Assembly: GCF_023078495.1 (NCBI RefSeq) | Contig: NZ_CP095742.1 | Span: 4,426,501-4,490,500, forward strand | Direction: 5' to 3' | DNA length: 64,000 nt | From: Luteibacter aegosomatissinici | GTDB lineage: Bacteria; Pseudomonadota; Gammaproteobacteria; Xanthomonadales; Rhodanobacteraceae | Part shown: positions 17,232 through 62,751 of the stretch, piece by piece | How positions within the stretch are numbered: the first letter of the stretch is position 1 | How the letters are laid out: the number at the start of each line of letters is the position of its first letter | The notes under the pieces: model-generated | What the model saw: the letters and a program-made list of their open reading frames with translations, nothing else | What the model was told of the DNA's origin: nothing | Databases searched by the model: none | Made by a program: the position numbers and the translations under genes

Positions 17232-18134
17232 TCAGCCCTGGGGGGCCGTGACGGGGGTTGCCTGGGCTGTCTGTGCGGCCTTCTGCACCTTCGCCTCGTC
17301 TTCCTGGGTGGCCAGCCACTGTTCGAATTCAGCCTTGGGCACGGCCTTGACCACGATCGGCATGAAGCCGTGGTCCTGGCCGCAAAGTTCGGCGCACTGG
17401 CCGCGATAGACGCCAGGCTCCTTCAGGTTCGTCCAGGCCGAGTTGGCGATGCCCGGGATCGCGTCCATCTTCCAGCCCAGCGCTGGCACCCACCACGAGT
17501 GGATGACGTCGCCGCCGACAATGATGAAGCGGATCTTGACGCCCACGGGCACCACGAGCGGCTTATCCACATCGAGCAGGTAGGTTTTATAGCCGTCGAC
17601 CTGGATCTTCTCCGGATCGAGGTTGGACTTGAGCTGGCGGGTGCGGTCGGAGGTTTCTTCCAGCTTGGACATGAAGCCCACGCGGTCGACCGGCTTGCCC
17701 TTGTACTCGACGTAGTCGTAGCGCCACTTCCACTGGTAGCCGGTGACCTTGATGGTCATCTCCGAGCCCGTGGTATCGGCGAAGCTGGTCAGGCCGCCGG
17801 TGGCGAGCTTGGCCAGGAAGATAAGGATGATGACGGGGATGACCGTCCAGACGATTTCCAGCTTCGTGCTGTGCGTCCACTTTTCCGCCACGGCGCCGCG
17901 TGACTTACGGAAGCGGAACATCGCCACGAACATGGCGCCGAAGACCACGATGCCAATGACGACGCAGACCCACAGCGCCACCATGTGCATGCCATAGGGG
18001 GACCACTCCGCCGCACCCTTGGTCATGTTGAGCTGGTCGGGTTCCGGGTTGGCCCTGGCCACCCCACCCGAGAGCGCTAGTACCACGCCTGCCGTCCACG
18101 CCGAAACCAATCGTCCGATGCCGCCAGATGTCAT
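17232..18134 (-). CDS. ctaC: Cytochrome c oxidase subunit II
   Basis: A 300-residue subunit that receives electrons from cytochrome c through CuA. It has a signal peptide, two membrane helices (~48-70 and ~90-112) and a periplasmic cupredoxin domain. CuA ligands are visible as HSWWVPALG and CAELCGQDHGFMP (two Cys, His, Met), with the electron-entry GYQWKWRYDY. There is no fused cytochrome c domain. First gene of the operon, 50 bp before ctaD. Confidence 0.97.
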   Translation of the reverse strand: MTSGGIGRLVSAWTAGVVLALSGGVARANPEPDQLNMTKGAAEWSPYGMHMVALWVCVVIGIVVFGAMFVAMFRFRKSRGAVAEKWTHSTKLEIVWTVIPVIILIFLAKLATGGLTSFADTTGSEMTIKVTGYQWKWRYDYVEYKGKPVDRVGFMSKLEETSDRTRQLKSNLDPEKIQVDGYKTYLLDVDKPLVVPVGVKIRFIIVGGDVIHSWWVPALGWKMDAIPGIANSAWTNLKEPGVYRGQCAELCGQDHGFMPIVVKAVPKAEFEQWLATQEDEAKVQKAAQTAQATPVTAPQG

Positions 18135-59888: not shown

Positions 59889-61040
59889 ATGAAAGTAACC
59901 AAGATCACCACGTACCGCGTTCCACCCCGATGGATGTTCCTGAAAATGGAAACCGACGAGGGCGTCATCGGCTGGGGCGAACCGGTCGTGGAAGGGCGCG
60001 CACGCACGGTCGAGGCGGCGGTGCATGAACTTTCCGAGTTCATCATCGGCAAGGATCCGGCGCACATCAACGATCTCTGGCAGGCCATGTACCGCGGCGG
60101 CTTCTACCGCGGCGGCGCCGTGTTCATGAGCGCCATGGCCGGCATCGACCAGGCGCTTTGGGATATCAAGGGCAAGGTGCTTAACGCGCCGGTCTACGAA
60201 CTCCTCGGCGGCCGTGTGCGTGATCGCATGAAGACCTACTGCTGGGTCGGTGGCGATCGCCCGGCGGACATCATCGCGCAGATGAAGGAGCGCCTCGCCC
60301 ACGGCTTCGATACGTTCAAGATGAACGGCTGCGAGGAGATGTCGATCATCGCCTCCAGCAAGCAGGTGGATGCCGCGGTGGCCAAGGTGGCGGAGATTCG
60401 CGAAGCCTTCGGCAACACCATCGAGTTCGGCCTGGATTTCCACGGCCGCGTGTCCGCACCGATGGCCAAGGTACTGGTGAAGGAACTGGAGCCGTTCCGC
60501 CCGCTCTTCATCGAAGAACCCGTGCTGGCCGAACAGGCCGAGTATTACCCGCGAATCGCTGCGCAGACGTCCATCCCCATCGCCGCCGGCGAGCGCATGT
60601 ATTCGCGCTACGAGTTCAAAGGCGTGCTGGAGCGTGGTGGCATCTCCATCATCCAGCCGGATCTGTCGCATGCCGGTGGCATCACGGAGTGCTTCAAGAT
60701 CGCGGCCATGGCCGAGGCCTACGATGTGGCGCTCGCACCGCACTGCCCGCTCGGCCCCATCGCCCTGGCCGCGTGCCTGCATGTGGATTTCGTTAGCTGG
60801 AACGCCACGCTGCAGGAACAGAGCATGGGTATCCACTACAACAAGGGTGGCGAGGTGCTCGATTACGTGCGCAACAAGGAGGCGCTGAAGCTCGATGATG
60901 GCGGCTACGCCCTGCCGTTTACCGGCCCGGGCCTGGGTATCGATGTGAACGAAGAGCTGGTGATCGAGCGCAGCCGCGACGTGCAGGACTGGCGCAACCC
61001 GTTGTGGCGGCACCCGGATGGGTCGGTCGCGGAGTGGTAA
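59889..61040 (+). CDS. dgoD: D-galactonate dehydratase
   Basis: A 383-residue enolase-superfamily enzyme making KDGal from galactonate. It is nearly colinear with E. coli DgoD: Asp183/His185 ([11 protein letters not shown]), [39 protein letters not shown] (catalytic His) and [17 protein letters not shown]. Last gene of the operon, 2 nt after dgoA. Confidence 0.97.
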
Positions 61041-61067
61041 ACAACTGAATCGCTTGCATTTATATAT

Positions 61068-61107
61068 ATTATCCACAATTATTCATATCTGGATAATTGT
61101 GGATAAT
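61068..61107. promoter_or_regulatory. Perfect 15-bp inverted repeat containing two DnaA-box consensus sites
   Basis: ATTATCCACAATTAT (61068-61082) and its exact reverse complement (61093-61107) flank a 10-bp centre. Each arm holds TTATCCACA, the perfect DnaA-box consensus (61069-61077 plus; 61098-61106 minus). An AT run, TTTATATATATTA, lies to the left. The second arm ends 5 nt before the ATPase GTG start. It may be a promoter operator, a DnaA-controlled site or a leader hairpin. Confidence 0.8.
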
Positions 61108-61112
61108 CTTTC

Positions 61113-62228
61113 GTGACCCAGTCCTTCGACCTCCCCTACTTCCCGCGCGGGCCCTTGGTCGAAGAAGTGCTTCAAATCCTCACCAGCGGGCTGAAGCAAG
61201 GTGTCACGCTATTCGCCCCTCGCCGTCAGGGCAAGACATCATTCGTTCGCCACGAACTCATCCCCGCGGCGAATGATCGCGGATGGCAGACCCTGTACAT
61301 CGACTTGTGGCGACGACGTGGCGAGCCCGAACTCGCATTAGTGGAAGCACTTGAGGGTTTTCTGGAATCACGCCAAAGCGGTTGGCGACGGAAGCTTCGC
61401 TTCAAAGAATTCAAGGCGAAGGCAAGCGCGGGCGCCGCTACGATCGAGTCGACGCTTGAACCCGTCGGCTTCGCCGCGGATCCCGTGCTCGAGAACAGGC
61501 TCGATGTCGCGCTGACCGCCTTGGCCGACAAAGGAGTGACCTTACTCATTCTCGATGAGGTTCAGGCACTTGCCGGCGCGAAGCGCGAGGACTTCGTGGC
61601 GGCACTGCGAACGGTCATCCAAAAGCTTCAGGGAAAGCTTCTTGTGTTCTATACCGGCTCGTCGCGTGACGGCCTGAACAGCATGTTCCGCCAGCAAAAA
61701 GCTCCTCTTTTTGCCTCTGCCATGGCGGTTCAATTACCGGATCTTGGCGATGCATTTATCGAAGATCGGCTTTCGTTCCTTCGTCTGCGCACGCAAGCGG
61801 TCGTGAGCAAGCAAGCGCTGGATGCCGCCTTCGAGACACTTGGCCGGACGCCGGAGTTCTTGAATGAAGTGATATTGCACCTGCTCATTGCAGGCAATGG
61901 TGATATCGATGCAGCCATGGGCCGCTGGGTGCATGCACAAAACGACACCGGGCTTGGATCCGTCCTGGACGAACTCAAGCCCCTCGAACTCGGCGTCATG
62001 AATCTGCTTGCGCAGCCCGCCCACCCCTCGGTGTATAGCTCCGAAGCGCTCGAATGGCTCTCCGCTCGTATCAACACAAGCGAGAAGTTGACCCCCGCAC
62101 GAGTGCAAGCTGCGCTAAAGAAGCTAATGCGCATGGAACTTGTCGGGCCAACGGGACGTCACGGAGAGTATGAAATCGAAGATCGCGCGACACTACTTCA
62201 GTTGCGGGCTATCGACGCGAATCAATAA
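61113..62228 (+). CDS. Orphan P-loop ATPase with C-terminal winged helix (ATPase_2/STAND-Orc-like)
   Basis: A 371-residue ATPase of the archaeal-type AAA+/STAND group. Walker A is APRRQGKTS (35-43), Walker B LLILDE (144-149) and a sensor-like FYTGSSRDG follows (179-187). The end (~291-358) reads as a winged helix: [39 protein letters not shown], then a GRHGEYEIE wing. GTG 61113 has no Shine-Dalgarno. Codon use is AT-richer than in the operon upstream. It overlaps the 3' end of rluE by 20 nt. Partners are unknown; similar proteins occur on mobile and defence loci. Confidence 0.82.
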
Positions 62229-62751
62229 TTCGAGTCTGGCCAACCTCGAGCCCGTCAAGTCGATAGTCACCAATTGCCTCCCGAATCAGGCGAAGCGTCG
62301 GCAAGCCCACAGCGGCCGTCATGCGGCGCACCTGTCGGTTCCGCCCTTCACGCAGCGTGATCCGCAACCATGCGTCAGGGACCGTCTTGCGAAAGCGCAC
62401 GGGCGGGTCACGTGGCCACAGCCATTCGGGCGCATCGATGAGCTCCGCACCCGCCGGCAGTGTCGGCCCGTCATTCAATACGACACCGCGGCGGAGCCTA
62501 TCGAGCGCTTCCTCCGTGGGCGTGCCTTCCACCATCACCACGTACGTCTTCGGCTGCTTGTGCTTCGGATCGGCCAGGCGGTGCTGCAGCTTTCCGTCAT
62601 CGGTCAGCAACAGCAGCCCCTCGCTGTCGTGGTCCAGCCGCCCGGCGGCGTAGACACCTTTCTGCGTCACGAAGTCGGCCAGCGTACGCCGGCCGGCTTC
62701 GTCGGTGAACTGGCACAGCACCCCGAAAGGTTTGTTCAGGGCGACCAGCAC
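62209..62751 (-). CDS. 23S rRNA pseudouridine synthase, RsuA/RluE type
   Basis: A 180-residue enzyme without the N-terminal S4 domain, like RluE (pseudouridine 2457 in 23S rRNA). Catalytic Asp40 is in [28 protein letters not shown] and [16 protein letters not shown] are conserved. It converges with the ATPase gene, overlapping by 20 nt. Confidence 0.92.

Follow-up and report, generated by a model that had tools for sequence, protein, structure and literature searches.

We propose that a palindrome lying directly upstream of an orphan AAA+ ATPase gene in Luteibacter aegosomatissinici is the autoregulatory operator of that gene, and on the strength of sequence comparisons we assign this reading a probability of about 70%. 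The window, by which we mean the whole 64,000 nt stretch of DNA that was analysed, carries the ATPase gene on the forward strand at 61113–62228 (371 aa, GTG start, predicted C-terminal winged helix) and the palindrome at 61068–61107. The two arms, ATTATCCACAATTAT (61068–61082) and ATAATTGTGGATAAT (61093–61107), are exact reverse complements of 15 bp around a 10 nt centre, and can be extended to 18 bp around a 4 nt centre if one mismatch is allowed. The original prediction had described two such arms with head-to-head consensus DnaA boxes, an A/T-only run beside the repeat and a gap of 5 nt between the end of the repeat and the GTG, and the coordinates confirm each of these; the A/T-only run occupies 61058–61072 and we read it as part of an AT-rich upstream region. 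Within the palindrome there are four 6 bp half-sites. Two lie on the forward strand, TTATCC at 61069–61074 (outer left) and, 10 bp further on, TTATTC at 61079–61084 (inner left), and two face them as GGATAA, that is TTATCC on the reverse strand, at 61091–61096 (inner right) and, again 10 bp further on, at 61101–61106 (outer right). A −10-like GATAAT, found by eye, overlaps the inner right half-site (61092–61097), and no sigma-70-like promoter passed a consensus scan of 60900–61250.

The palindrome is not a product of chance, as had been anticipated. No second perfect inverted repeat with arms of at least 15 bp and a centre of at most 12 nt is present in the window, and none appears by the same criterion in 20 shuffles of it. 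When the local 63 nt were shuffled, arms of 15 were obtained in 0 of 20,000 trials and arms of 12 in 11 of 20,000.

The ATPase itself matches Pfam PF01637 (ATPase_2) with 28.0 bits, below the curated cut-off of 33.2, and a sequence search of the PDB gave 0 matches at E up to 1. A structure model (mean pLDDT 70.9, from a six-sequence alignment) has an AAA+-like core followed by a C-terminal helix-helix-helix-wing arrangement that we read as a winged helix, with the predicted recognition helix at residues 328–340 and the wing at 344–355, as taken from the secondary structure of the model (together residues 328–355, 62094–62177 on the forward strand). For the winged helix of the original prediction the predicted model is the sole support. 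The closest Foldseek matches are two structures of the ATPase_2 family, 2qen (Pyrococcus abyssi PABY2304, E 2.8e-12) and 2fna (Sulfolobus SSO1545, E 1.9e-10), with TM-scores of 0.45–0.48 and identities of 20% and 15% respectively in the structural alignment. Orc1/Cdc6 proteins and ORC subunits are the next neighbours, archaeal Orc1/Cdc6 chains making up five of the top 12 (E 7.4e-9 to 3.2e-8, TM 0.39–0.50); as these TM-scores are all 0.50 or less, the resemblance is only at the level of the fold. Walker A, Walker B and sensor-like stretches are seen in the 12 homologues displayed. The case for a defence system was limited to PADLOC PDC-S27, matched weakly and in part (E 7.1e-4, residues 109–203), and we set that identity aside.

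Comparison of the same chromosomal site across the genus provides further insights. In the genome of the window (G000, one contig of 4.99 Mb), the ATPase gene is situated between a mandelate-racemase-type enzyme gene (59889–61040) and a convergent pseudouridine synthase gene (62209–62751, reverse strand). Matches to the enzyme gene with at least 61% identity are present in 22 of the 23 genus genomes, G000 included, while G114 has distant matches only, and the pseudouridine synthase gene falls within the 1.5 kb flank in 20 of these 22 loci. The ATPase gene lies between both flanking genes in two of the 20, G000 and G109, and the two proteins are 75% identical. The G109 site, TTATCCATAATTATTCAA-ct-TTGAATAATTATGGATAA, is a longer perfect palindrome that lacks an exact DnaA box, since, relative to the window, T replaces the C of the box in the left arm and A replaces the partner G in the right arm. 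Because this palindrome is perfect without the box, we tie it to the ATPase rather than to DnaA, and the preservation of perfect symmetry through matched changes in both arms favours the operator reading. By its enzyme gene the closest relative is G110 (96%), which has no ATPase gene and carries TTATGCACAATTATGCATCGATGAATAGTTGTGCATAA at the same place (L078:2671–2708); its outer sites show a matched change, and its inner right half-site has decayed to GAATAG. This looks like a clean loss of the ATPase in which the palindrome was left as a relic, and the decay is as expected of one, although persistence of the palindrome without the gene does weaken the case for an operator.

A search of 233 family genomes with the four-half-site pattern TTATNC-N4-TTATNC-N(3-9)-GNATAR-N4-GNATAA found G000, G109 and G110 only, with one site each, and the reversed-pattern control gave 0 in every genome. 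The pattern thus occurs once per genome and at this locus only, which again supports the operator reading, and since it is confined to these three genomes, the palindrome is missing from 17 of the 18 loci that have both flanking genes but no ATPase gene. Between G000 and G109 the ATPase genes differ at pS 0.768, which is saturated, and pN 0.178, compared with pS 0.474 and pN 0.047 for the adjacent enzyme gene. Saturated synonymous change together with this pN indicates that the ATPase looks to be under purifying selection. In view of the lower values for the enzyme gene, the ATPase alleles look older than the split of their hosts, which from this one pair would fit horizontal exchange and suggests that the allele was replaced horizontally at a fixed intergenic site. 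Several of the ATPase-free gaps 3' of the enzyme gene (L079–L096) hold, by eye, GC-rich REP-like repeats (GTAGGAGCGCGC.., GGGAGCCGCTTCAGCGGCGAT..).

To describe the regions upstream of more distant homologues we used a discovery set of 47 regions, of which 34 were nonredundant after 13 had been dropped at 70% identity or more, and a fresh set for which the outcome was predicted in advance, where 5 of 20 regions were dropped at the same threshold (L134, L136, L137 and L138 were unused). Start codons were placed by eye or annotation in the discovery set and mechanically or by annotation in the fresh set; exact 6-mer direct repeats were scored, and expected counts came from dinucleotide shuffles. 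The nonredundant homologues have a G+C content of 31–36% at −60 to −1 as against 52% at −120 to −90. An exact direct repeat at 9–11 bp is found in 17 of the 34 regions where 2.8 are expected, and the exact spacings are 10 bp in 15 regions, 19 bp in 11, 20 bp in 6 and 29 bp in 8, with 0.7–1.0 expected for each. In the fresh set the 9–11 bp repeat is found in 6 of 15 nonredundant regions (1.2 expected), all six at exactly 10 bp, with repeats at 19 bp in 5 and at 29 bp in 4 (0.3–0.4 expected); L145 and possibly L144, whose annotated starts are doubtful, were kept in this set as misses. This excess over expectation supports the operator reading.

As controls we took 114 other long ORFs of the same loci, chosen mechanically, neither curated nor matched for A+T. 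Their upstream regions have the 9–11 bp repeat in 16 of 114 cases compared with 9.3 expected; by exact spacing there is a mild excess at 9, 10 and 12 bp (9, 7 and 10 observed against 3.4, 3.0 and 3.1), with 5 against 2.7 at 19 bp and 0 against 2.6 at 29 bp. The exact 9–11 bp repeat is missing from 17 of the 34 discovery regions, from 9 of the 15 fresh regions and from 10 of 14 loci that were initially excluded as distant members, partial matches or uncertain starts, or in the case of L057, a close homologue that has no array; the other 4 of these 14 have it. Left outside all counts were L020, L038, L045, L049, L051, L052, L068 and L069, class-level profile matches without an assigned locus, and the G092 homologue, which lies in three pieces (L006, L013 and L014, with repeats L058, L070 and L072) and is probably a broken copy. 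Loci representing the same place were counted once only (L015, L019, L031, L054, L055, L060, L063, L064, L067 and L071, for example). A repeated site just before the gene thus recurs with the ATPase in unrelated contexts in both sets, and the phased array appears to be a trait of the family, though not a universal one. The idea that a palindrome precedes orthologous ATPases holds for G109, which keeps one at the same site, but not for distant homologues, which carry phased arrays of other sequence or in some cases none. The many homologues lacking an exact 9–11 bp repeat, the mild excess in control ORFs and the absence of a consensus promoter all weaken the operator reading.

The repeated words have a common form. 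In the discovery set TTA ranks first of the 64 cores (z 14.1), followed by ATT (10.8) and AAT (10.6), and 18 of the 34 regions have at least three copies of one word. In the fresh set TTA came second (z 6.1) behind AAT (z 7.6), so that its predicted top rank was not obtained, and this too counts against the operator reading. The best word of a region is frequently TTA followed by a variable triplet, which is TTATCC in the window, TTATGC in L003, L022, L023 and L027, TTATAC in L004 and L034, TTAGCG or TTAGCA in Stenotrophomonas (L016–L018), TTACAC in five copies in L030, TTAGAT in L112, TTAGTA in L114 and L115, and TTACGC in L121. The most regular array is that of L026, with seven TTAGAC/GTCTAA in about 70 bp, mostly alternating between 13 and 6 bp. 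Half-sites can differ between fairly close proteins, for instance L027 and L121 (TTATGC and TTACGC; 71% identical) or L036 and L037 (TTAAGA and TTAATA; 76% identical). Sites facing the gene lie upstream of those facing away (mean −51.6 and −32.1; Mann-Whitney p 1.8e-4, from 18 regions with 68 sites in all, those of one region not being independent of each other). The pair GCATA-N5-GCATA, which was picked from the arrays themselves, occurs seven times in three complete plasmids, and six of these copies are no more than 60 bp upstream of the ATPase gene; among three chromosomes, G112 has it 3 times (control 3), G474 has it 4 times, two of these within the array (control 1), and G179 has it 0 times. 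Glutamine 332 of the recognition helix is kept in 38 of 47 homologues, and one may speculate that it is a constant contact to TTA. By eye, over 35 rows with manually assigned motif labels, no simple code relating recognition-helix residues to the triplet is visible, a further point that weakens the operator reading.

The ATPase gene is sporadic. It is present in 12 of 233 family genomes, and profile searches found it in 17 of 398 genomes of the order and, distant members included, in 30 of 369 genomes of the class. It occurs in 139 of 72,556 plasmid records and in 0 of 50,697 phage records; PHROGs gave no family match at E up to 0.1 and a pattern-based scan of viral contigs gave no relative, and we rejected a phage or viral origin on these grounds. 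A nucleotide search of E. coli genomes gave no match. In annotated plasmid stretches the neighbours vary (traT with mobH, umuD, ssb with a topoisomerase, trfA, toxin-antitoxin genes), and there was no recurring partner gene in those read; some further stretches carried no annotated genes. These differing contexts support the operator reading, and the gene and its operator appear to form a small, horizontally moving unit of a single gene.

An alternative is that DnaA, acting on the head-to-head boxes, couples the ATPase gene to replication through a responsive promoter or titration site, which we regard as improbable. The palindrome does contain two exact copies of TTATCCACA in opposite orientation, at 61069–61077 (+) and 61098–61106 (−), and a third lies at 17563–17571, where 0.08 are expected per window. 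Exact boxes are enriched in the genome as a whole, the count of 39 against 5 for the reversed pattern answering the suggestion that they be counted and indicating that such boxes are not rare here. However, the exact box is found in one of the three palindrome-bearing genomes and is unconserved at the orthologous locus, which has TTATCCATA in G109 and TTATGCACA in G110. The latter still fits TTWTNCACA, which we take to be the relaxed DnaA-box consensus. Within 120 nt upstream of the start, one of 47 discovery homologues, namely that of the window itself, and none of 15 fresh ones have the exact box; for the relaxed box the counts are three of 47 and none of 15. The box can be explained as the half-site TTATCC followed by a spacer ACAA. 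L121 (TTACGCACAATTACC) combines that spacer with a different half-site, and a Cupriavidus homologue (L142) has TTATCC half-sites upstream without CACA. The match to a DnaA box is probably a coincidence, although DnaA might still bind both perfect boxes incidentally. The window's site also differs from known DnaA-box clusters, with which it shares two exact inverted boxes, in that its four-site pattern is single copy and tied to the ATPase gene, and box-like clusters elsewhere in the genus have a different form. We therefore rejected DnaA as the main explanation, on the orthologous sites, the single-copy search, the box counts and the form of the genus clusters; among the three readings originally offered the ATPase's own operator is the one supported, whereas the emphasis on DnaA is not, the box being rarely kept before homologues. 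The short genus elements in question, TTATNCACA..TTATGCA..ATNCACA, often clustered and by eye with a further TGTGGATA, occur in 15 of the 23 genomes at 1–7 matches each (52 in total, 0 in the reversed control). G000 examples lie outside the window at 4042.6–4043.2 kb (L076) and 809.1–809.3 kb (L075), one cluster adjoining a SucD-like gene recognised by eye, and in seven genomes the coordinates place a cluster about 5 kb or less from a mandelate-racemase-like paralogue. The element is a candidate DnaA-titration locus.

Archaeal initiators assemble on sites beside their own genes, and the Orc1/Cdc6-like fold, the helically phased arrays in cis adjoining the gene and the plasmid records would be compatible with an ATPase that assembles on the array to replicate, partition or maintain a mobile element. 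We nevertheless consider this unlikely, as two plasmid stretches carry replication genes of their own (L122 has trfA, and L023 one for a replication initiation protein), a partner gene does not recur and phage records have no match. Moreover, the copy in the window is at 4.49 Mb on the 4.99 Mb contig, and a DnaA-like gene, recognised by eye at the contig start (L073), would be some 0.5 Mb away if the contig ends are joined; there is no clear skew switch in 52–64 kb of the window. It is very unlikely that the palindrome acts instead as a 5'-leader RNA hairpin that hides the start codon and controls translation. A hairpin is predicted (−23.3 kcal/mol, z −4.79), and the matched changes of both G109 arms and of the G110 outer sites would suit it, but several homologues have direct repeats phased at 10 bp or alternating sites instead of one hairpin, and spacings of 10, 19–20 and 29 bp point to recognition of the DNA helix. 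Equally hard to sustain is the view that the palindrome belongs to a mobile element, as its insertion site or a transposon end, with that of G110 an empty target. It would account for the sporadic gene and for a palindrome without a gene, but all other ATPase-free relatives with both flanking genes together lack the palindrome, the search of the window found no copy behind the gene, and the decayed half-site of G110 is that of a relic.

Returning to the operator, we envisage that the C-terminal winged helix of the ATPase would recognise a 6 bp half-site of the form TTA+NNN, here TTATCC with TTATTC tolerated. The four half-sites, two per arm and 10 bp apart within each arm, with the arms facing each other in AT-rich DNA before the start codon, would be occupied by several subunits, probably as an ATP-controlled oligomer, on successive turns of the helix. 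The bound ATPase would then set the transcription of its own gene, most simply by repression. The comparisons show how the sites are built, their symmetry and phasing, their association with the gene and the occurrence of the four-site pattern once per genome; the presence of a promoter here, the binding and oligomerisation of the ATPase and the direction of regulation are what we infer. A wider and distinctly tentative proposal is that Pseudomonadota have widespread one-gene modules, each an Orc1/Cdc6-fold ATPase with a private TTA+NNN array (about 9.7–10 bp) on which an ATP-controlled helical oligomer would form, with conserved residues of the winged helix responsible for the constant TTA and variable residues for the triplet; this last feature would allow co-resident copies to avoid cross-talk. 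In that case the complex may have functions beyond the repression of its gene; it could be a bistable switch, for instance, or serve the element in the manner of an initiator or partition complex.

Autoregulated AAA+ winged-helix ATPases are already a known class. Orc1-2 of Saccharolobus islandicus, a non-initiator Orc1 homologue with AAA+ and winged-helix domains, is reported to bind a hexanucleotide on its own promoter and to be switched by ATP binding and hydrolysis (PMC9738581), which offers a precedent for such autoregulation. As described there, Orc1-2 acts globally as a DNA-damage regulator, on several target promoters and with an ANTTTC motif (PMC9738581), in contrast to the bacterial ATPase studied here with one four-site pattern per genome, TTA+NNN half-sites and a phased multi-site array. 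IniR of mycobacteria has an AAA+ domain predicted to be similar to SSO1545 and is said to bind a promoter; it differs in its 818 aa, its MalT-like and LuxR-like domains and its control of iniBAC (PMC5760070). In the literature searched, of which coverage was incomplete, the matches listed include no report of phased arrays before ATPases of this kind or upstream of PF01637 members, nor did we find homologue-specific phased TTA+NNN arrays in a horizontally moving bacterial family.

The original match to DnaA boxes carries a caution for motif annotation, as a perfect box can arise by matched change in an unrelated operator. Naturally diverged pairs of protein and operator, such as L027 and L121, are available for the study of how winged helices change their targets. 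For this uncharacterised ATPase family, the arrays provide a concrete candidate DNA target that can be read from the genome for many of its members.
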